Origin: Clostridia bacterium
Lineage (GTDB): Bacteria > Bacillota > TC1 > UBA5767
Reading direction: 5' to 3'
Assembly (NCBI GenBank): GCA_030625965.1
Contig: DAOUPV010000002.1
Span: 38,902 to 102,901 of the forward strand
DNA length: 64,000 nt
A model generated the notes under the pieces. The model was not told where the DNA came from. It did not search any database and was given only the letters and a program-made list of their open reading frames with translations. The number at the start of each line of letters is the position of its first letter. The stretch's first letter is position 1. Below are positions 14,861-42,994 of this stretch, piece after piece. Position numbers and translations under genes: made by a program.

Positions 14861-14929
14861 AATAATAATACATTTAAACAGAGCATGTGTATCCATCAGT
14901 TATGAAATTCTGAAGAGTGTGTATTGAGG

Positions 14930-14960
14930 AAGCCAAGAATTATAATAAATTCTTGGCTTT
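14930..14960 (+). terminator. Hairpin with short T-run
   Basis: AAGCCAAGAATTataatAAATTCTTGGCTTT. Confidence 0.5.
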
Positions 14961-15186
14961 ACTATATTCTGTTGATGGCTAGGGATACAGTATCCTTAAG
15001 TGCATATTGTCTGATTTAAGTGGACATTGAAAGTAACAATTTTGCATTAAGGAGAAAAATATGAGAAAATAGGAGGCAAGGGTGGGGAAATATTCGATTA
15101 AGAGAATAAATATACTGACATACATATAAATAGGTATAAAAATTAACAATAATGCGGTAAAATATGTTAATAATAGAATAGTGTGC

Positions 15187-15215
15187 TTGACAATATTTAA
15201 GATGATTTGTATACT
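15187..15215 (+). promoter_or_regulatory. Sigma-A type promoter for leader RNA 1
   Basis: TTGACA (15187-15192), 17-nt spacer, TATACT (15210-15215). Confidence 0.75.
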
Positions 15216-15250
15216 TTACTAAAGATTTAAAAACAATTTAATAGCTAAAA

Positions 15251-15480
15251 AGAATTTTGTGAGGTGGGATAGACGAAGGTCTATCTGAGCTGAAGAAGCT
15301 TTAGACGGCAGAGTTCCGATTTGTAACTGTTCGCCATTTTGAAATGACAGTTTGTTGTGATGTTTCATTTCATGGTGCGTATGCAAACGGATTCTCTCAG
15401 TCTATGTGCTCGCATATGTGACATTGAATAACGCCACGACTTTCTGCTGAAAGAGCAGGAACAGTTGTGGCGTTTTTTTG
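15251..15480 (+). ncRNA. Structured leader RNA, copy 1 (riboswitch/attenuator candidate) upstream of iorAB-1
   Basis: Long conserved blocks shared with 20145-20384; hairpins GATAGAC/GTCTATC, GAAATGA/TCATTTC, CGTATGC/GCATATG; terminal AACGCCACGACT...AGTTGTGGCGTTTTTTT. Confidence 0.8.
15430..15480 (+). terminator. Intrinsic terminator of leader RNA 1
   Basis: AACGCCACGACTTTCTGCTgaaagAGCAGGAACAGTTGTGGCGTTTTTTTG. Confidence 0.88.
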
Positions 15481-15549: not shown

Positions 15550-17487
15550 GTGGTTGAGATTCGAGAGAATAGAAAGATGCTGCTGATGGGAAACGAGGCC
15601 ATTGCGCGAGGTGCTATTGAAGCCGGTGTCCAAGTAGTAGCTTCCTATCCGGGGACTCCATCTTCTGAGATCACGGAGAGCCTCATTGAACAGGCGGACG
15701 AGTTTGGGTATTACACACAATGGAGTACAAACGAGAAGGTCGCATTTGAGATCGCGGCTGGTGCCTCATTGGTTGGGGCACGTTCAATTACTTCCATGAA
15801 AAATGCGGGATTGAATGTGGCGATGGATACATTCATGACCATCCCCTATGGAGGATGCAAAGGTGGCTTCGTCGTTGCTGTGGCGGATGATCCTGATGCT
15901 CATTATTCTTCGACTGAACAGGATACGCGCGTTTTGGCGGCCTATGCTGAAATTCTGTGCATGGAGCCCGGTGACCAGCAGGAAGCCAAGGATATGACGA
16001 AAGAAGCATTCGAGCTTTCTGAGCGGTTTGAGTTGCCGGTGATGCTTCGGTCAGTCAGCAGGATCTCCCATGCCAGCGGAGATGTTGTATTGGGCGATGT
16101 AGAACAGGGCAGGAACAAAATCGGATTCAACAAGCATTACAAGGTTCCCTACAGATGGAATGTCTATGGCCCGCCAGGAGCCAGGTCGAAACATGAGTGG
16201 CTTCACCGGCAGTTGGTTGACATGAAAGCCTATTCCGAGCAATCCGGATTCAATGAAATCCGCATGGTTGAGGGTGCCAGGACAGGGATTATCGGTGTGG
16301 GACTGGGAGCATCCTATGCACAGGAGGCGATGCAGGAGCTGGAGATGCATGAGAGTATAAGCTTCTTAAAGGTTGGTATCCCGTTCCCTCTACCGGAAGA
16401 AAAGATACTGGCTTTTTTAAAAGCGCTGGATCGTGTGGCAATCATTGAAGAGGGAGATCCAGTCGTCGAGAACATGATCAGGGTCATTGCTCAATGCCAT
16501 GGCCTTGATGTTGAGATTGTCGGGAAGAATGCAGGCCGGATGTTCAACCCATGGGGCGAATTGAATCCGGATATAGTCCGCAAAGGCATTGCAGACTTCA
16601 TGCGTCTGAGCATTGCTGAGGATGAGGCACGTAACGCAATCAAGGCGGATATCAAAGAGCTGGTGACCACGAGATCGTCTGCGCTATGCCCGGGATGTTC
16701 GCATCTGGGGACCTACTGGGTTGTGCAGAAGATACTTAAGAAAATTCCCGGGGTGCATATCGTAAACGGGGATATCGGCTGTTATGAGCAGGGCGGTTAC
16801 GGAGAAGGTGGTAGAAAACCCGCAAGCGATGAGGTCAGCAAAAAATATAAACGTTCATCTCCATATGAAACACTTGATACGATCCATATCATGGGTAGTG
16901 GCATCGGTTTGGCGCAAGGCCAAGTTGCTGCAGGATATGAAGACGGCAAGGTGCTCGCTGTCTGCGGCGAGTCAACGTTTTTCCATGCGATTCTGCCGGC
17001 CATCGTCAATGCAGTATACAACGAATCAGATATTACATTCTTGATTTTGGACAATTCGTGGACAGCCATGACTGGGCACCAACCCAATCCGAGAACAGGC
17101 ATGAATACGAGAGGTGCGATCAAACCGGCTGATATATTCGATATCGTAAAATCGATGGGGGTCAAGCATGTAAGCCGCGGTAATGCGTTCAACCTGCAGG
17201 AAGCGGAAGAACTGCTTGCGGAGGCTGTTGAGGCGGAAGGCCTTTCCGTCCTGATACTGGAAGGTGAGTGCCAGCTTCAGAATGTACGCCGGAACAAGAT
17301 CACGGAAGGATTCATGCAGGTTAATCAGGATACCTGCAATGGTTGCAGAACGTGTGTAACCCTGGGATGTCCTTCGATCAAATTTGATGCTGTGACGAAG
17401 AAAGCCAGTATTGATCCGATTACCTGTTGCGATTGCGGCTTGTGTACTCAAGTGTGTCCTGTGCAATCGATAAGTAAGGGGATGTGA
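15550..17487 (+). CDS. iorA: Indolepyruvate:ferredoxin oxidoreductase alpha subunit (paralog 1)
   Basis: MGNEAIARGAIEAGVQVVASYPGTPSSEI; TPP domain GDIGCYEQ...CGESTFFHAILPA; C-terminal 2x[4Fe-4S] CNGCRTCVTLGCP / CCDCGLCTQVCP. Confidence 0.9.
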   Translation: MVEIRENRKMLLMGNEAIARGAIEAGVQVVASYPGTPSSEITESLIEQADEFGYYTQWSTNEKVAFEIAAGASLVGARSITSMKNAGLNVAMDTFMTIPYGGCKGGFVVAVADDPDAHYSSTEQDTRVLAAYAEILCMEPGDQQEAKDMTKEAFELSERFELPVMLRSVSRISHASGDVVLGDVEQGRNKIGFNKHYKVPYRWNVYGPPGARSKHEWLHRQLVDMKAYSEQSGFNEIRMVEGARTGIIGVGLGASYAQEAMQELEMHESISFLKVGIPFPLPEEKILAFLKALDRVAIIEEGDPVVENMIRVIAQCHGLDVEIVGKNAGRMFNPWGELNPDIVRKGIADFMRLSIAEDEARNAIKADIKELVTTRSSALCPGCSHLGTYWVVQKILKKIPGVHIVNGDIGCYEQGGYGEGGRKPASDEVSKKYKRSSPYETLDTIHIMGSGIGLAQGQVAAGYEDGKVLAVCGESTFFHAILPAIVNAVYNESDITFLILDNSWTAMTGHQPNPRTGMNTRGAIKPADIFDIVKSMGVKHVSRGNAFNLQEAEELLAEAVEAEGLSVLILEGECQLQNVRRNKITEGFMQVNQDTCNGCRTCVTLGCPSIKFDAVTKKASIDPITCCDCGLCTQVCPVQSISKGM

Positions 17488-17491
17488 GACC

Positions 17492-18106
17492 ATGACATAT
17501 AATTTGATAATTGCAGGCATTGGCGGTCAGGGCAGCATTCTGGCTTCCAGAATCGTGGCAGATGCCGCCATTCAAGCTGGTAGTGGAGTAGACGGTGATT
17601 TGAAAGTGAGAGTAGGGGAAACGTTCGGGGCCGCCATGCGTGGTGGATCTGTTGCGTCCCACGTTCGTATCGGGCCAGATGTAGGAGGGCCCCTGGTACC
17701 GAAAAATGCAGCACAGGCGATTCTTGCGCTGGAGCCCCTTGAAGGACTGCGTATAGGGATCCCCTATCTGGCACCTAGCGGCTTGGCAATACTTAACACC
17801 TCCGAGGTTATGCCTATTGATGTGAAAGTGGGCGCTGCTAGCTATCCCAAATTGGAGACGATCAAAGCGGCTCTTGAAAGTCTGGAAGGAAGAGTTTATC
17901 TGCTCGATGCGACCAGTCTGGCGCTGGAGGCCGGTAATGCAAAAACGGTAAGCGCTGTTATGCTGGGCGCCTGGGCAAATCTGGCGGAACTCCCCTTCGC
18001 CCTAGAGCAACTTAAAGAGGCGCTGCAAGGTCGAGTGCCGCCAAAAACGGTTTCTACGAATATGAAAGCATTTCAGCTTGGATTTGAGGCGGTTGCTTCA
18101 GACTAA
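17492..18106 (+). CDS. iorB: Indolepyruvate:ferredoxin oxidoreductase beta subunit (paralog 1)
   Basis: IAGIGGQGSILASRIVADAAI...RVGETFGAAMRGGSVASHVRIG. Confidence 0.9.
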   Translation: MTYNLIIAGIGGQGSILASRIVADAAIQAGSGVDGDLKVRVGETFGAAMRGGSVASHVRIGPDVGGPLVPKNAAQAILALEPLEGLRIGIPYLAPSGLAILNTSEVMPIDVKVGAASYPKLETIKAALESLEGRVYLLDATSLALEAGNAKTVSAVMLGAWANLAELPFALEQLKEALQGRVPPKTVSTNMKAFQLGFEAVASD

Positions 18107-18209
18107 AAGATAAGAGGCAGTACGGAATGTGAGGCGATGTCTATGTTGTAGTCCAATAGGTTAGAATGCGAATGAATACATATTCTGAAAACCAGAGGAG
18201 GTATGATTA

Positions 18210-20003
18210 ATGAATACTACTTATATCCTGGTAATTTTGATTGCGTATCTTTTACTCATGATTTACTTGGGTTTCTTCTTCAAAAACAGGATCAACACAT
18301 TCGACGATTTCATCTTAGGAGGGCGAGACTTGCCATGGTTCGTGATTTCCATGACCATGCTGGCGACACTTGCCAATGCACAACAGACGCTCGGTATTGC
18401 AGGTAACAGCTATATTTTGGGCTTGGCCCCTATGCTTTGGTACTTTATTCTGGTAAATATCTTCATTTACCCCCTTATGATTCGTCTAGGTAGTCGGTAC
18501 CGCTATCTGAAATTCTCCACGGTTGTCGATATGGGGGAAGAGCGCTATCCTAACAGCGGCCGGATGACCATTGTACTTAGCATCTGGCAGGTTGCATGGG
18601 CTGTGGTTAGTACGGCAATTTGCATCTTTGGTGGCGGACTCGTGATTGAGACGGTTTTTGGAGTGCCACTCGCATTTGCCTGCGGGATTGTAACGATTAT
18701 TACTGTAGCCTATTGCGTGATGGGCGGCCTCAATGCTGTTGTATTTACCGATACCATTCAATGGCTAATCATCATCGCAGGTACGGCGTTCCTGGTGCCT
18801 GCTGTATTCTCGAAATTCGGTAGTTTCTCTGTCTTCTTCTCCGCCATATTGGGGAGCTCAGGCATGTTACCCGCGGAGGGGGCAACCTTGTGGCCTGGGT
18901 TTACGGACTTGTTTACCTTGCCGCAAGGAGTGACCGCCTTAGGACTGATTTCCATGGGCCTGGCCGGAGCCTTATGGATCCCGATCGATCTGGGCTATAT
19001 GCAGAGAATGCTTTCAGCGAAAGACATCAAGCATAGCCGTAAAGCAGCGTTGGGCTTTCTGGTAATTGTCACGCTTTGGGCGATCATCATGGTTGTGATG
19101 GGTATCTATGGTACAGTGCTGTTCCCGAATGTCGCAAACACGGACACTGTGATTCTGCTGATGGCCGAGGCTGCTATGCCAGGGATAGGCTTGGCCATTT
19201 TCGTGACTGCGATCGCTGCTGCAGTCATGAGTACGGCATCCACCTATATGAATGCGGGGGCTGCCATCATTGCTAAGAATATCTACAAGCGCTTTTTTAA
19301 CAAGAGTGCTGAAGATGCAAAGCTGATTAAAGTTGCCAGGATATCCATCATAATCATTGCTGTAGCAGCGCTTGGATTTGCGCCCTTTGTGCGCAGTAGC
19401 GGTGTGTTCAATACTGCAATCACTTTCCAGATGATCATGTGTGCATCTCTTACACCCCTGATCATACTGAGTACCTACTGGAAGCGAATGACCGAAGGGG
19501 CAGCTTTCTGGGGATGCGTTATTAGTGGCGTGATCACAGCTGCGTTGGTTATGAGAGCTGGTGGTGGCGGTGCGGTATTCTTTGGCGCTGGCATAGCTGG
19601 TATCCCTGCGATTTTTATAGGCCTAGTCCTATCAACGTTAATCTATGTGACATGGAGTATGAATAAACCATACGATGCCAGTAGTGTAGGACCCGCGTTC
19701 AGGAAGATTTTTGAGGGCGAGGAAAAGATGGAGAAAACCTCCAATAGGGACCTGGCCGTTATCGGTACTGCCATTGTTGTTCTCCTGATATCCATCGGCG
19801 TGCGTTCCATTCCGGGCAGAACATTTAATGCCTGGCCAGCGTTGAGCGGTATAGGTGGACGTTTGACCGACTGGTTCCTGATTGCTGACGGAATAGCCAT
19901 CTTCTTCATTTGCCTGTTTATCCTTGGACGTACCTTCAAGTGGGTGGTCGGATTGAAAAAACAGCAGAATGGCGAATCGTTGCCGGAAGACCAATCTGTT
20001 TAG
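18210..20003 (+). CDS. Sodium:solute symporter (SSS) family transporter
   Basis: 597-aa multi-TM protein; N-terminal FDDFILGGRDLPWFVISMTMLATLANAQQTLG and AAVMSTASTYMNAGAAIIAKNIYKRF typical of SSS. Confidence 0.88.
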   Translation: MNTTYILVILIAYLLLMIYLGFFFKNRINTFDDFILGGRDLPWFVISMTMLATLANAQQTLGIAGNSYILGLAPMLWYFILVNIFIYPLMIRLGSRYRYLKFSTVVDMGEERYPNSGRMTIVLSIWQVAWAVVSTAICIFGGGLVIETVFGVPLAFACGIVTIITVAYCVMGGLNAVVFTDTIQWLIIIAGTAFLVPAVFSKFGSFSVFFSAILGSSGMLPAEGATLWPGFTDLFTLPQGVTALGLISMGLAGALWIPIDLGYMQRMLSAKDIKHSRKAALGFLVIVTLWAIIMVVMGIYGTVLFPNVANTDTVILLMAEAAMPGIGLAIFVTAIAAAVMSTASTYMNAGAAIIAKNIYKRFFNKSAEDAKLIKVARISIIIIAVAALGFAPFVRSSGVFNTAITFQMIMCASLTPLIILSTYWKRMTEGAAFWGCVISGVITAALVMRAGGGGAVFFGAGIAGIPAIFIGLVLSTLIYVTWSMNKPYDASSVGPAFRKIFEGEEKMEKTSNRDLAVIGTAIVVLLISIGVRSIPGRTFNAWPALSGIGGRLTDWFLIADGIAIFFICLFILGRTFKWVVGLKKQQNGESLPEDQSV

Positions 20004-20089: not shown

Positions 20090-20118
20090 TTGACAGACTA
20101 AAATGTTTGAAATATGAT
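20090..20118 (+). promoter_or_regulatory. Sigma-A type promoter for leader RNA 2
   Basis: TTGACA (20090-20095), 17-nt spacer, TATGAT (20113-20118). Confidence 0.75.
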
Positions 20119-20144
20119 TAATATATAAATACAATTACATATAA

Positions 20145-20384
20145 AGAATTTTGTGAGGTGGGATAGACCCTAGGATCTATCTGAGCTGAAGAAGCTTTTT
20201 AGACGGCAGAGTTCCGTATTTGTTGATGTTCGCCATTTTGGAAATGACAGTCAGTTGTGACGTTTCATTTCATGGCGCATGTGCAAACGGATGCTCCATG
20301 CCTTCCACACTCGCATATGTGACAGTGAATAACGCCACAACTTTCTGCCAACAATGGTAGAAATCAGTTGTGGCGTTATTTTTG
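20145..20384 (+). ncRNA. Structured leader RNA, copy 2 (riboswitch/attenuator candidate) upstream of hyuA
   Basis: Homologous to 15251-15480; GATAGA/TCTATC, CGCCAT..GAAATGA/TCATTTC..ATGGCG, CATGTGC/GCATATG, terminator AACGCCACAACT...AGTTGTGGCGTTATTTTTG. Confidence 0.8.
20331..20383 (+). terminator. Intrinsic terminator of leader RNA 2
   Basis: AACGCCACAACTTTCTGCCaacaatGGTAGAAATCAGTTGTGGCGTTATTTTTG. Confidence 0.85.
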
Positions 20385-20428
20385 TGTGCTGTCGAATTTC
20401 TCAAACAAAAGAGTAAAGGAGTGAAAAA

Positions 20429-22495
20429 ATGAGATATCGAATCGGTGTTGATATTGGAGGGACATTTACTGACTGTGTAGTGATTGGGGATAACAATCAG
20501 ATCCATACATTCAAGGAAATGTCTACTCCGGAAGATCAGTCAATTGGGCTTTACAATGTTATTCATAAAGCGTCTAGTTTTTTCGATAAGGGCTTAGATG
20601 AATTCTTGGAGGGGGCAGACTTATTCGTACATGGGACCACTGTGGCGACCAACACGTTGTTGACAGGTACAGGGGCGAAGACAGGGCTAATCCTGACAAA
20701 AGGTTTTCGGGATACGATAGAGATGCGAAGGGCTCATAAAGACAATATTTGGGATCTCAATCTCTTCACTCCACCACCATTAGTACCCCGTTATTTGCGG
20801 TGTGGTGTGGAAGAACGTATGAATTATTTGGGAGAAGAAGTCCTTCCATTGAATGAGCAGGACGTACTTGATGTGTGTGAAGGATTGAGAGAGGAAAAGG
20901 TAGATGCTGTTGCTATTTGCACACTCTTTTCCTATCTGAATGACAAGAATGAAAAGCGTATTAAGGAGATTGTAGAAGAACAGTTGCCAGATGCGTTTGT
21001 GTCTCGATCCTCTGAAGTATTACCTCAAATCCGCGAGTACGAGAGACAATCGACAACAGTAGCCAATGCCTATGTAGGACCTAAACTGACCGTATACTTG
21101 AAGAATCTAGAAAAGAAACTAAAGAATGACGGACTGAAAAAGGCCTTCTATGTCGTAGCATCCAATGGAGGTATGATGATGGCCGATACAGCGATACGAC
21201 ACGCTTCTGCCACCCTCCTTTCCGGCCCTGCCGCCGGCGCCACAGGTGCTATGTTCTTTGCTAACTTAGTCGATAATCCCAATCTGATCTTGTTGGATAT
21301 GGGTGGTACGTCTTTTGACGTGAGCTTGATTAACAACGCAGGTGTAACTCTATCTACAGAAGGTGAAATCGCTGGCTATCGAGTTGCAAAACCCATGATC
21401 GATATCCACACGATCGGTGCTGGTGGCGGTTCGGTTGCTTGGCTTGACAGCTGGGGGATGATCAACGTCGGACCTGAATCTGCCTATTCGAATCCCGGCC
21501 CTGTCTGTTATGGCCGTGGTGGTGTGAAACCGACGGTGACAGACGCCAATCTCCTGCTTGGGTATTTGAACAAAGACTACTTCCTCGGCGGAGAGATGGA
21601 AATTGACTTTGAAAAGTGCCACAGCATCATGAAAGAGAAAATAGCTGACAAAATGGGTATGAGCGTTGAAGAAGCAGCCAGTGGAGTATTCCAGATCGTC
21701 AACCAGAGCATGGCTGATGCCACCAAGGTGGTTTCTGTGCAAAAAGGGTATGATCCTCGTGAGTTTGCCCTGGTCAGTGCTGGAGGTGCTTGCTCCATCC
21801 ACGCTTGCAAGATTGCAGAAGAGGTTGGCTCCAAGACCATTTACGTACCTAAGGCGGCCTCGGTATTCTGCGCTCTCGGTATGTTAGAATCCGACATCCG
21901 ACTAGACAGTGTACGGAGCTTTACGGGCACCATTCCCGGGATGAATCTGGAGGACATGAATCAGGTCATCGCCGATACGGAACAGACCGCGATGGGCGAA
22001 TTGCTCCAAGAAGGTAGTAGTCGGGAAGAGTCATCTCTGGAACGCTATCTGGACGTACGCTATGTCGGACAGCACCACGAGGTTACCTTGCCTATTCCTA
22101 ACGACTGCACACTAACAGAGAAGCAAGTGGAAGAAATCGCGAACACTTTCCATGAGGCTCACGAACGACTGTACAGTTATAGCACACCTGAAACACCGAT
22201 TGAGATCGTTAACTTACGTATTACGGCAGTCGGCCATGTTGAGAAGACCGGCATGGAGAAAAAGGAAGCGGTCAAGCAGAGTGTAAATGATGCAATCAAG
22301 AATAGAAGAGCGATTTATTTCGAGGAGTATGAAGATTGGAAGGAAGTCCCCGTATATGATCGGAACATGCTCCATCCGGGACATGAAATTGAGGGACCTG
22401 CTGTTTTGGAAGAACGAATTACCACCATCATAGTGCATCCCAAATGGAATGCTAGGATTGATGACTTTGGCAACGTGATCATGGAGGTGAAATAA
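20429..22495 (+). CDS. hyuA: Hydantoinase/oxoprolinase family subunit A (HyuA)
   Basis: MRYRIGVDIGGTFTDCVVIG; ILLDMGGTSFDVSLI; DIHTIGAGGGSVAWLDSWGMINVGPESAYSNPGPVCYGRGG. Confidence 0.93.
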   Translation: MRYRIGVDIGGTFTDCVVIGDNNQIHTFKEMSTPEDQSIGLYNVIHKASSFFDKGLDEFLEGADLFVHGTTVATNTLLTGTGAKTGLILTKGFRDTIEMRRAHKDNIWDLNLFTPPPLVPRYLRCGVEERMNYLGEEVLPLNEQDVLDVCEGLREEKVDAVAICTLFSYLNDKNEKRIKEIVEEQLPDAFVSRSSEVLPQIREYERQSTTVANAYVGPKLTVYLKNLEKKLKNDGLKKAFYVVASNGGMMMADTAIRHASATLLSGPAAGATGAMFFANLVDNPNLILLDMGGTSFDVSLINNAGVTLSTEGEIAGYRVAKPMIDIHTIGAGGGSVAWLDSWGMINVGPESAYSNPGPVCYGRGGVKPTVTDANLLLGYLNKDYFLGGEMEIDFEKCHSIMKEKIADKMGMSVEEAASGVFQIVNQSMADATKVVSVQKGYDPREFALVSAGGACSIHACKIAEEVGSKTIYVPKAASVFCALGMLESDIRLDSVRSFTGTIPGMNLEDMNQVIADTEQTAMGELLQEGSSREESSLERYLDVRYVGQHHEVTLPIPNDCTLTEKQVEEIANTFHEAHERLYSYSTPETPIEIVNLRITAVGHVEKTGMEKKEAVKQSVNDAIKNRRAIYFEEYEDWKEVPVYDRNMLHPGHEIEGPAVLEERITTIIVHPKWNARIDDFGNVIMEVK

Positions 22496-28538: not shown

Positions 28539-28957
28539 TAGAAAATATATAGTGTGATTTTCTAAATAAATATATTGATTGGAGCAATTGTTATGGCAAG
28601 TTCGACTTGCCATAACGGCTCTGATTAAGTAATTGTACAATTCCCCGGATTTGAATTTGTAAGGTTTCATCAGTTCCAAATATATCATACGCCATTATAA
28701 TTATTCATTCATATTTCATAATATGTTCATCCATCATGCTGAAATGAATTTCCAATCTTTAGTATACAGTGCAACATAACTATTTTGCGGGGAAGTATTA
28801 CGAGTCAAGAATTACTAGAAAATGTTTATTATCATTAATATCAGGCATCTATTTTCGTGTTTTGCGATGAAAGAATGGGTAAGACTCTAATAGAAGTTGT
28901 GCTATCCATTGAATATTGTTTGAATACGAACAAAATATAATTTTCATAGGAGGAAAT

Positions 28958-38932: not shown

Positions 38933-39415
38933 ATGAGTGAAAATATAAAGATCGCATTTACGTTGAATGGTGAAGTGGTTAACTTGGAGGTGGAACCAGA
39001 TCAGACGCTGCTCTCGGCACTGCGGGATAATCTGGGGATGACTGGTGTCAAGGAAGGATGTTCCATCGGTGAATGCGGCACCTGCACGGTCATCGTTGAC
39101 GGCAAAGCGACAAAGAGCTGCATTGCTCTGGCAGCAGCATTTGACGGCAGAGAGATTGTCACCATCGAAGGTTTGGCCAATGGCGATCAGTTGCATCCTA
39201 TCCAGGAAGCCTTCATTGAAAAAAATGCGATACAATGTGGTTTCTGTACCCCTGGTTTTATTATGAGTGCTTTGGCATATCTGGAAAAGCATCCCCGGCC
39301 TAGGCGTGAAGAGATTCGAAAAGCAATTTCAGGAAACCTGTGCCGTTGTACAGGCTATGAGCAGATTGTCGATGCTATCGAATACTATGCTAATGAAATG
39401 GAAGAAGCTCAATAA
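38933..39415 (+). CDS. Xanthine dehydrogenase-family [2Fe-2S] subunit
   Basis: VKEGCSIGECGTCTVIVDGKATKSC and QCGFCTPGFIMSALAYLEKHPRPRREEIRKAISGNLCRCTGYEQIVDAIE. Confidence 0.95.
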   Translation: MSENIKIAFTLNGEVVNLEVEPDQTLLSALRDNLGMTGVKEGCSIGECGTCTVIVDGKATKSCIALAAAFDGREIVTIEGLANGDQLHPIQEAFIEKNAIQCGFCTPGFIMSALAYLEKHPRPRREEIRKAISGNLCRCTGYEQIVDAIEYYANEMEEAQ

Positions 39416-39427
39416 GAGGTGGAAATA

Positions 39428-42400
39428 ATGGATGATTTTCGTAATGTTACGGTTAGTATTGATGGGAAAAAGGTCATCGCCCATGCGGGAGATAATATAT
39501 GGGATGTGGCGCTATCCGCTGGGATAGAAATTCCCAACCTCTGTCATGACACCAAACTTAATCCGAATGGGAAATGTGGCTTATGTGTGGTGCAGATTGA
39601 TGGCAAAGAGCCGGTATGTGCATGTGAGACACCTGTACATGACGGAATGGACATCGTAACTGAAAACGAGTTGCTCGCCTCCATGCGTTGCGAGGCACTG
39701 CAGAAGATGGCGGACAAGCATCGCGGTGATTGCATCGCCCCTTGCCGTTTGGAATGTCCGGCGGATAGCGATTGCCAAGGTTATGCGGGCTTGATTGCCG
39801 AGGGTTACTTCTCAGAAGCACTGCAGTTATTAAAAGAAAAATATCCTTTGCCTGCCTCGTTGGGTCGGATATGTCCGCATCCTTGCGAGGAGGCCTGTAG
39901 ACGCAATCTTCTCGAGGGCCCTGTATCACTGGCGAAGCTGAAGCGCTTTGCGGCGGACGTCGATTTGGGATTGGAAACGTCATACATGCCCGAGACGGAC
40001 GCCTTGACAGGGAAAAGCGTAGCGATCATCGGCAGCGGTCCAGCAGGGCTGACGGCAGCCTGGCAGCTGCTGCAAAAGGGCCATAAGGTGACGATATATG
40101 AAGCCATGCCCGAAATGGGCGGGATGCTGCGTTATGGCATTCCAGAATTTCGGCTGCCGAAAGCTGTTCTGGATCAGGAAATCGCACTGATAGAGGCCAT
40201 GGGCGCGAAGATGAATATTTCCTGTCCCATCGATGAGAAGCGGTTCGATGAACTGAGAAAGCAGTACGACGCGGTATTCGTTTCCATTGGGGCTTGGAAG
40301 AGCTCATCGCTTAATATTCCGGGAGAGTATTTGCATAACGTCATGAGTGGATTGGATTTCTTACGTCGAATCGCACAGCAGGAAACGCTGAACTTGGGCA
40401 AACACGTCGTCGTGGTTGGAGGGGGCAACACAGCCATCGATGCCTGCCGAGCAGCCTACCGTTTACCGAGCGTGAAAAAGGTTACCCTGGTTTACCGTAG
40501 AGCGCGTGATCAAATGCCGGTCATTGAAGAGGAACTGCTGGAAGCAGAGAAAGAAGGTATCGAGTTCTGCTTCTTGGCTACCCCGGTAGAAGTCAAACCA
40601 TGTAACGACGAACTCTATCTGGTTCTGCAAAAGATGCATTTGGCAATGCCGGATGCATCAGGGCGTAGACGCCCTGAACCGATTACGGGCGAAATCCGGG
40701 AATGTTCTTGTGATTATTTAATCGTAGCGATCGGTCAGCAGGTCGATACGGGAGGCTTCCCCCAACTGAATCTTTCGCATCAGGGGACGATCCAGACGGA
40801 CGACCGACTGCAGACCGGTATGCCGGGTGTTTTCGCAGGCGGTGACGCGGCGAATTCCGGCCCTGGCCTGGCGGTGGAGGCTGTCGCGGACGGACAGAAG
40901 GCCGCGAGAGCCATCGACGCCTATCTGCGTGGCGAGGAGTACGTCGAGCAGGACAAGACCTATTTCAGGCAAAATGACCTGACTGCTGAAGCGTTCTCCC
41001 ATGTCAATCCGCAGGAACGGGTAGCAGCGCCAATTCTGGATTGCAGCGACAGGATGAAGAATTTCACGGAAACCGCTGGGGGATTCTCAGCAGATGAAGC
41101 TGTGCAAGAAGCTTCGCGTTGTTTGGAGTGTGGGTGTCTTGATTTATATGAATGCAAGTTGCTCTCCTATATGAAACAGTATGGCATGGAAACAGCGGTG
41201 CCAGACCAGACACCGCGTCAAGTCATTGATCGCCGTCATCCATATATTCATTACGATCCCAATAAATGCGTTCTTTGCGGATTGTGTGTTCGTGTTTGTT
41301 CCGAGATGATGGGATACGATTCTTGGAAGCTCGATGAAAGCGGTAATCATGCACTGATCAAAACTGCTTCAGGTGGAGCGCTCCAGACTACATCTTGCAT
41401 CGGATGCGGTCAGTGTGTGGAACATTGTCCTACCGGAGCGCTAACGGAACGAAATCCCAGGCAAAAACCGCTGGTACTTCCTCCCAGCAAACAACGTAGT
41501 GTTTGTAATTATTGTGGCGTGGGCTGTAGCACCGAAATTCATAGTTACGGCAATGCTCTCATCAAGGTCAAGCCGATCGTTGACGGATCATTGGAGGAAA
41601 ATATTCTCTGTCGCCATGGACGATTCGGTTGGCACACGGTCTTGAGCGAAAAGGGACTCACGTCTCCATTATGTATGGATGAAGGATGTTTTCAACCTGC
41701 CAGCTGGGATGATGCCTATCTAGCGATCCATGAGGAGATCAACCGTGTGCAGCGGACGTATGGCAGTGATGCCATCGGCATCTTGGTCGCTGATCGTATG
41801 ACCAGCGAGGAGATCTATCTTTCCCGCAAGCTCGGGGAGAGTATCGGCACCAGCAGCTTCTATAGCGCCAATGTATACGACGGCGGTTTGGAAGAGGTTC
41901 TAGGTCTGGATGGCAGCAGCAATAGCTATCAAGAACTTGCCGAGACGGATTTGATATTCATCCTTGGGGCTGATGTTCCTTCTTATTATGCAATGTTGGC
42001 TGTGCCGGTACAAAAGGCCAAAAAGAAGGGCGCCAAGCTGTTGCTGGCGGCAGCTGAGGGCTGGAATGGCTTCAATATGCTAGCAGATCAGCGTGCAGTC
42101 GTGGAGGACGATACAAGATTTCTCAAAGAAATGCTCCAATATCTTCTCAGACAGTGTTGTTGTCCAACCAACGCCGAAGGTTATGAACAATTGGTTGTCT
42201 CCCTGGCGGGTGTAGAGCCAAGTGAGGAGGCGACAGCCTTCGCCAAAGCGTACCTGGAAGCGCCTAATGCGATGATCATGCTCGATCGTGAGCGAGTTTC
42301 AACGGAGACAGCACGTTTGCTTGCCAATCTAGCCGTCATCAGCGGACATATCGGCAAGCCCAAAAACGGATTGATACAGATGCTGCAACATAGCAATACT

Positions 42401-42994
42401 CAGAGTGTGTCTTATATGAACATCCGCGCCAATATGTCTGATTTACAAGAAGACATACAGAGTGGAAAAATCAAAGGCTTGATCTTGGTTGAGCAATTCA
42501 TTGATAAGGAATTAGCGAATTCCCTCGAATTCATAATGCTGATGGACAGTATGTCCGGTCCGGCTTTTGAGTATGCAGACGTATTTCTTCCCATGCCAGG
42601 ATATGGCGCCTTTGACGGCAGTTATGTTAACGCTGAAGGGCGGGTGCAACGTCTGCAGCGAGTCTTAGCACCACCAGCCGGCAAGGATGGCTGGCAAGTT
42701 TTGGATGACATGATTGGCTATATTGATCCAGCACAACAACTGTCAACTTTGGAAGCGGTGCAAGATGAGTTGAGTCAGAGATTTCCTTTATATAAGCCCT
42801 GTTTGCAGGGGGGGGAGGATTTTGTTGCAGGTGGTCCAGTTTGCTATCAAAACGGATTCGCTTTTACTGATGGCAATGCCCGTTTATATCCTGCACAACC
42901 AGATTCGAGAATGTTTAGCGAGATGATATTTGCAGATGTACCTTTGGTCGTCTGGTTTGATCAGTTGATAAAGGAAGGTCTGCTGCAATACTAG
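39428..42994 (+). CDS. Large fusion oxidoreductase: 2Fe-2S + GltD/NfnB-like FAD-NAD(P) module + 4Fe-4S ferredoxin domains + NuoG/FDH-like molybdopterin-fold domain
   Basis: CHDTKLNPNGKCGLCVVQIDG; CPHPCEEACRR; VAIIGSGPAGLTAAWQL; VVVVGGGNTAIDACRAAYRL; CVLCGLCVRVC; CIGCGQCVEHCPTG; CNYCGVGC...ILCRHGRFGW. Confidence 0.88.
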   Translation: MDDFRNVTVSIDGKKVIAHAGDNIWDVALSAGIEIPNLCHDTKLNPNGKCGLCVVQIDGKEPVCACETPVHDGMDIVTENELLASMRCEALQKMADKHRGDCIAPCRLECPADSDCQGYAGLIAEGYFSEALQLLKEKYPLPASLGRICPHPCEEACRRNLLEGPVSLAKLKRFAADVDLGLETSYMPETDALTGKSVAIIGSGPAGLTAAWQLLQKGHKVTIYEAMPEMGGMLRYGIPEFRLPKAVLDQEIALIEAMGAKMNISCPIDEKRFDELRKQYDAVFVSIGAWKSSSLNIPGEYLHNVMSGLDFLRRIAQQETLNLGKHVVVVGGGNTAIDACRAAYRLPSVKKVTLVYRRARDQMPVIEEELLEAEKEGIEFCFLATPVEVKPCNDELYLVLQKMHLAMPDASGRRRPEPITGEIRECSCDYLIVAIGQQVDTGGFPQLNLSHQGTIQTDDRLQTGMPGVFAGGDAANSGPGLAVEAVADGQKAARAIDAYLRGEEYVEQDKTYFRQNDLTAEAFSHVNPQERVAAPILDCSDRMKNFTETAGGFSADEAVQEASRCLECGCLDLYECKLLSYMKQYGMETAVPDQTPRQVIDRRHPYIHYDPNKCVLCGLCVRVCSEMMGYDSWKLDESGNHALIKTASGGALQTTSCIGCGQCVEHCPTGALTERNPRQKPLVLPPSKQRSVCNYCGVGCSTEIHSYGNALIKVKPIVDGSLEENILCRHGRFGWHTVLSEKGLTSPLCMDEGCFQPASWDDAYLAIHEEINRVQRTYGSDAIGILVADRMTSEEIYLSRKLGESIGTSSFYSANVYDGGLEEVLGLDGSSNSYQELAETDLIFILGADVPSYYAMLAVPVQKAKKKGAKLLLAAAEGWNGFNMLADQRAVVEDDTRFLKEMLQYLLRQCCCPTNAEGYEQLVVSLAGVEPSEEATAFAKAYLEAPNAMIMLDRERVSTETARLLANLAVISGHIGKPKNGLIQMLQHSNTQSVSYMNIRANMSDLQEDIQSGKIKGLILVEQFIDKELANSLEFIMLMDSMSGPAFEYADVFLPMPGYGAFDGSYVNAEGRVQRLQRVLAPPAGKDGWQVLDDMIGYIDPAQQLSTLEAVQDELSQRFPLYKPCLQGGEDFVAGGPVCYQNGFAFTDGNARLYPAQPDSRMFSEMIFADVPLVVWFDQLIKEGLLQY

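Follow-up and report, generated by a model that had tools for sequence, protein, structure and literature searches.

A single genome of a Clostridia bacterium holds three copies of a leader RNA that folds into a four-way junction and ends in an intrinsic terminator. We conclude that this leader is very probably a real, selected and structured cis-regulatory RNA that acts by transcription attenuation. The three copies precede functionally related genes, and we read the leader as a rare orphan riboswitch, a reading to which we assign a probability of roughly 0.55; that the RNA binds a small molecule is, on the model developed below, likewise somewhat better than an even bet. Unless another contig is named, positions refer to the window, that is, the whole stretch of 64,000 nucleotides of contig DAOUPV010000002.1 that was analysed.

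Two homologous leaders and their signals

The features that define the two leaders of the window are as follows.

15187-15215, forward strand: promoter of copy 1, TTGACA-17-TATACT
15250-15480, forward strand: leader RNA copy 1, upstream of iorA (GTG start at 15550), from sequence, alignment and fold
15550-20003, forward strand: iorA, iorB and an SSS-family symporter gene, the unit 3' of copy 1
20090-20118, forward strand: sigma-70-type promoter of copy 2, TTGACA (20090-20095), 17-nt spacer, TATGAT (20113-20118)
20144-20384, forward strand: leader RNA copy 2, an aptamer-like domain and terminator upstream of hyuA, from sequence, alignment, BLAST and fold
20331-20384, forward strand: intrinsic terminator of copy 2, AACGCCACAACU/AGUUGUGGCGUU with upper stem UUUCUGCC/GGUAGAAA, then AUUUUU
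20429-22495, forward strand: hyuA, Hydantoinase_A family (ATP-dependent hydantoinase/caprolactamase type), ATG start, Shine-Dalgarno sequence AAAGGAG at 20415-20421

A preliminary description of this DNA proposed that hyuA is preceded by a second, homologous copy of the leader with its own promoter and with a terminator 45 nt before the gene. All of this holds. BLAST gives 84% identity between copy 2 and copy 1 (15251-15479), and alignments agree on the homology. The homologous block starts at AAGAATTTTGTGAGG and ends just past the T run of the terminator; the similarity is confined to the leader, and the surrounding sequences are dissimilar. Both promoters match the consensus at 11 of 12 positions and rank at the top of nine promoter-like sites in 5.5 kb, the total number of such sites being no higher than in shuffled sequence. 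A strong terminator closes each copy shortly before iorA or hyuA; that of copy 2 ends at 20384, and the hyuA start codon lies at 20429. The leader is structured, lies 5' of the gene that it putatively controls and reads in the same direction, as a riboswitch would. The structured RNA itself is about 230 nt long and the predicted short terminated transcript about 255 nt.

Might these short transcripts be the functional product, a family of trans-acting small RNAs, with read-through to the genes incidental? A promoter of their own and a strong terminator would indeed yield, at each of three loci, a discrete transcript of about 255 nt. A co-directional gene starts close behind the terminator in every case, however, and the terminator arm has an internal competitor that is kept in all copies (see below); we regard a small RNA family as distinctly unlikely. 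Attenuation through translation of a leader peptide receives next to no weight from us: copy 1 contains a 23-codon ATG frame near 15360, but an indel shift and residue-altering substitutions destroy it in copy 2, and no ribosome-binding site is evident.

The fold of the leader

The consensus fold is a four-way junction of helices P1 to P4, with a conserved multi-helix part of about 175 nt. Its elements are given here for copy 2.

20152-20157, forward strand: P1 5' strand UGUGAG, partner CUCGCA at 20310-20315; the stretch is also used by the alternative antiterminator
20162-20181, forward strand: P2 hairpin GATAGA/TCTATC, stem invariant, loop variable
20184-20196, forward strand: P3 hairpin AGCU-GAAGA-AGCU, invariant
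20209-20296, forward strand: long P4 arm, GAG/CUC, UCCG/CGGA, UUUG/CAAA, CGCCAU/AUGGCG, GAAAUGA/UCAUUUC
20254-20264, forward strand: P4 apical loop, GUUGUGACGUU
20278-20284, forward strand: CAUGUGC, a potential partner of GCAUAUG (20313-20319) in a pseudoknot or alternative helix
20310-20315, forward strand: P1 3' strand CUCGCA
20311-20322, forward strand: alternative hairpin P5, UCGC-AUAU-GUGA, which sequesters the P1 3' strand when the leader is antiterminated

The joining segments GUGG, UG and UUUAGACGGCA are invariant; variation falls in the P2 loop, the P4 tip and the linker from P4 to P1. Two helices behave as first described: the initial hairpin GATAGA/TCTATC keeps its stem with a different loop, and the lower stem CGCCAT/ATGGCG pairs perfectly in copy 2 and contains a G.U pair in copy 1. 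A third helix needs revision. CGTATGC (copy 1) and CATGTGC (copy 2) were taken to form a helix P4 with the invariant GCATATG. Each does pair fully with it, by way of two one-sided changes, but the minimum-energy fold lacks this helix, which could form only in competition with P1, as a pseudoknot or an alternative helix.

The leader is more stable than its shuffled versions. Fold energies give z=-7.4 for copy 2 and z=-5.6 for copy 1, and none of 200 shuffles was as stable. Much of this is due to the terminator; the aptamer part alone still reaches z=-4.3 and -2.7. The proposed check of both copies by alignment and alifold also came out in favour of a shared structure: the two-sequence consensus energy lies beyond that of column-shuffled alignments by 3.5 SD for the aptamer and 5.7 SD for the whole leader.

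Predicted mutually exclusive pairings at the terminator

How might such a structure act on its terminator? The 5' strand of P1 is common to two computed helices that exclude each other: P1 itself, and a pairing with the 5' arm of the terminator.

15251-15266, forward strand: antiterminator 5' strand of copy 1, partner 15432-15445
20145-20160, forward strand: antiterminator 5' strand of copy 2, AGAAUUUUGUGAGGUG, partner 20333-20346; 12 bp, one 2x2 loop and one 2-nt bulge

For transcripts truncated at the terminator loop, all three copies have the antiterminator as their minimum-energy fold: this strand pairs with the terminator 5' arm CGCCAC(G/A)ACUUUCU and the 3' strand of P1 is held in UCGC-AUAU-GUGA. 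In the full-length leader P1 and the terminator form instead, again in all three. Such double use of the strand offers an explanation of why the bases ahead of P1 do not vary. Every copy retains all 12 antiterminator pairs, with a single change, U.G to U-A. A terminator with a mutually exclusive pairing is what an expression platform consists of; here both come from computed folds, and shuffles lend the pairing modest support. The antiterminator is equalled by 2% of whole-aptamer shuffles and, with shuffling restricted to the first 19 nt, by 18-23%; in terms of energy alone, the complementarity to the terminator arm is nothing out of the ordinary.

The P4 apical loop, GUUGUGA(U/C)GUU, is similar to the terminator 3' arm GUUGUGGCGUU and offers a second candidate antiterminator. 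It pairs with the terminator 5' arm at 10 of 11 positions, and 1-2% of shuffles do as well. We considered this loop as the sole antiterminator and demoted the idea because the predicted folds of every copy contain the 5'-strand pairing; the duplex energy in copy 1 is moreover not unusual.

Catabolic operons often use RNA-binding antiterminator or terminator proteins, and the anatomy just described would fit an attenuator governed by such a protein, with no small molecule involved, equally well. Known protein sites of the antiterminator kind need far less sequence than the roughly 175 nt of conserved helices with invariant junctions seen here, and no gene for an RNA-binding regulator was recognised among the neighbouring open reading frames that were scanned. 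We hold a protein-controlled attenuator to be unlikely, though still to be reckoned with.

A third copy and constraint on the leader

The genome total is three copies. The third lies on contig C116 at 20786-21014 (L005:4787-5013); like the pairing of the leader's 5' strand with the terminator arm, it is new relative to the preliminary description. It arose by a duplication that spans the promoter, leader and spacer of copy 1 and the first 256 nt of iorA. Downstream of it lie the truncated iorA (89 codons), a frame of 43 amino acids and a 482-aa SSS-family symporter that shares only 23% identity with the copy-1 symporter. Since copy 3 is a duplicate and the symporters differ to this degree, a different transporter now stands behind the leader. 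Between the iorA fragment (L005:5144-5413, contig C116) and its parent, 12 of 14 differences are synonymous, and for this reason the fragment was probably part of a functional gene before it was truncated.

The duplication allows the leader to be compared with its own surroundings. Between copies 1 and 3 only 5 of 226 leader sites differ. In the non-coding flanks the figure is 20 of 141 (promoter side 12/68, terminator-to-gene spacer 8/73), and at third positions of iorA it is 12 of 85. The lower divergence of the leader is significant against both (Fisher p=1.7e-5 and 1.6e-4, respectively), so the leader is more strongly constrained than its flanks. The simplest reading is that purifying selection acts on the leader; gene conversion restricted to it could also produce this pattern.

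Selection on the RNA structure, as opposed to a recent duplication of neutral DNA, had been claimed at the outset from compensatory base changes. The claim of selection survives on other grounds, namely the divergence of copies 1 and 3, the fold z-scores and the alifold energies. The argument from compensatory changes was overstated and does not hold statistically. In the aptamer there are no two-sided pair changes between the paralogues, and the changes that keep a pair are one-sided, by way of G.U. The sole double change, U-A to C-G, sits at the tip of the terminator stem, where correct placement of the loop gap makes it visible to the eye; MAFFT misplaces this gap, and some cells there are counted as unpaired in the pair tallies. 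A test that places the same substitutions at random and counts broken pairs is not significant overall: the copy-1 structure gives P=0.03, the copy-2 structure P=0.44. Covariation cannot be proven from two diverged sequences, and the searched genomes outside this one yielded no homologues that could lend covariation support across species.

Genes behind the leaders

Copy 2 is followed by hyuA, hyuB and genes for an octopine-dehydrogenase-family protein and an ornithine-carbamoyltransferase-like protein. Further along the same stretch are an amino-acid permease, a PreA/DHO-dehydrogenase-like (UacX-like) protein, an SsnA-like amidohydrolase, subunits of an ADP-forming acyl-CoA synthetase, a second IOR pair and XdhA/XdhB-like subunits. 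By gene content, the downstream genes resemble a cluster for reductive purine (uric-acid-type) degradation and probably serve the breakdown of a nitrogen ring compound. Window positions 15550-43904 as a whole form a large accessory cluster with Hydantoinase_A/B, two IOR pairs (alpha subunits 59% identical), ADP-forming acyl-CoA synthetase and an OTC-like carbamoyltransferase, possibly a variant of the reductive purine/uric-acid degradation pathway. At 39419-42994 the window encodes a 1191-aa fusion of a glutamate-synthase-small-subunit-like part and a NuoG/formate-dehydrogenase-like C-terminal part, directly 3' of a 2Fe-2S-type frame (about 38934-39415, by eye).

Two further regions of the window were noted for their folds: the intergenic stretch 28539-28718, 5' of the PreA-like gene (z about -3.1 against shuffles, no match to the leader model), and 14873-15052, 5' of copy 1, which folds somewhat above shuffles (z about -2.9).

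Judged by homology, the system is accessory in this lineage, because the three family mates yield no hyuA match at E<=1e-100 and the best relative of iorA, in one of the three, is 41% identical. The nearest hyuA homologue (44%, genome G215) lies in a non-syntenic cluster.

Searches for relatives

Does the leader belong to a known family? Stretches of 311-321 nt searched against Rfam 15 gave no family above the gathering threshold and nothing credible at relaxed E-values. T-boxes and large riboswitches resemble the leader in size and in terminator control, and the leader might belong to a known class, such as the T-boxes or a known purine riboswitch, yet have diverged too far for the models to detect it. 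Given the Rfam result, and with no conserved sequence bearing a T-box UGGN found by eye, we think this very unlikely.

BLASTN within the family found no homologue beyond the three known copies. A covariance model built from the three copies was run on the order, the class, two other classes and about 400 genomes of the phylum. It recovered the three copies of this genome, with no match in the 398 other genomes drawn from the phylum or in the classes; the model rests on three close sequences and its filters were strict beyond 40 genomes, so that very diverged members could be missed. A search of the genome itself for weak hits returned only the known copies, and no leader was found at 29 loci with hyuA homologues. 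A pattern search of the genome contigs of the whole collection gave three matches, which we discarded as chance: the model scores two as nothing and one at E=0.21, and the match in Lacrimispora is a coding repeat.

A dispersed repeat or mobile element that folds and terminates by chance would explain why copy 3 came with a segmental duplication that includes the 5' part of iorA, and why the operons are absent from genus mates. Yet just three copies exist in the genome, each ahead of metabolic or transport genes in the same orientation. The leader is conserved by selection, we saw no signature of a mobile element, and searches of phages, plasmids and viral contigs gave no homologue of the leader. 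A mobile origin of this kind is highly improbable.

Proposed mechanism

On the riboswitch reading, transcription would start at the sigma-70 promoter and polymerase would transcribe the compact junction domain. In the OFF state P1 (UGUGAG/CUCGCA) would be closed and the terminator would form before the coding region. In the ON state AGAAUUUUGUGAGGUG would pair with the terminator 5' arm while P5 holds the 3' strand of P1, allowing read-through into hyuA (copy 2), iorAB and the symporter gene (copy 1) or the second symporter gene (copy 3). A putative ligand, plausibly the imported N-heterocycle, an intermediate of purine or hydantoin breakdown or an end product, would act at the strongly conserved junction, binding there and biasing P1. 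Ligand binding, the ligand's identity and the polarity of the switch are inferred; a ligand that stabilises P1 would turn the switch OFF, and OFF is the polarity we favour, at about 60:40.

A ligand from the downstream pathway is plausible. More tentatively, and with the balance leaning against it, the leader may represent a riboswitch class not described before, one whose ligand is an intermediate or end product formed in anaerobic purine/hydantoin degradation and which coordinates uptake and breakdown through its three copies; urate, yanthine and ureidomethyl-hydantoin may serve as example ligands. A riboswitch of this kind would provide a ready-made sensor of a metabolite in this anaerobic route, which is relevant to uric-acid breakdown in gut-type bacteria. 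With three natural copies and a few mutually exclusive helices, the leader is directly testable. As a riboswitch it would be one of the rare, hard-to-find classes, which are expected to be numerous (PMC10043782).

Comparison with known systems

The leader resembles terminator-controlled riboswitches, such as those of Bacillota in which P1 competes with an antiterminator. It is a promoter-proximal structured leader with conserved joining segments at its junction, a P1 strand common to the antiterminator, an intrinsic terminator before the gene and several copies before related genes. Unlike them, it matches no described family in sequence or structure and was found in one genome only. T-box leaders are about 200 nt long and choose between a terminator and an antiterminator. 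The leader is similar in size and in this choice; in copies 1 and 2 neither the T-box sequence nor its UGGN bulge is seen by eye, and Rfam gives no match.

The reductive uric-acid degradation clusters of anaerobes comprise XdhD, UacX, SsnA, HyuA and YgeW, and the paper describing them mentions no riboswitch (PMC12507026). The window shares with these clusters XdhA/XdhD-like and SsnA-like proteins, a UacX-like DHO_dh, a carbamoyltransferase and a hydantoin-opening enzyme. Its HyuA/HyuB are of the Hydantoinase_A/B type, in contrast to the amidohydrolase HyuA; YgeX/YgeY were not noticed in the window, and two IOR-type oxidoreductases and an ADP-forming acyl-CoA synthetase are present in addition.

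The NMT1 motif, a xanthine/uric acid riboswitch of Proteobacteria, is a small two-stem junction (PMC7373994). Our leader, a four-way junction of about 175 nt, differs from it in structure, and Rfam searches of the leader gave no NMT1 match. The likeness lies in the association with purine oxidation genes, and through the downstream pathway the ligands of the two RNAs may overlap.
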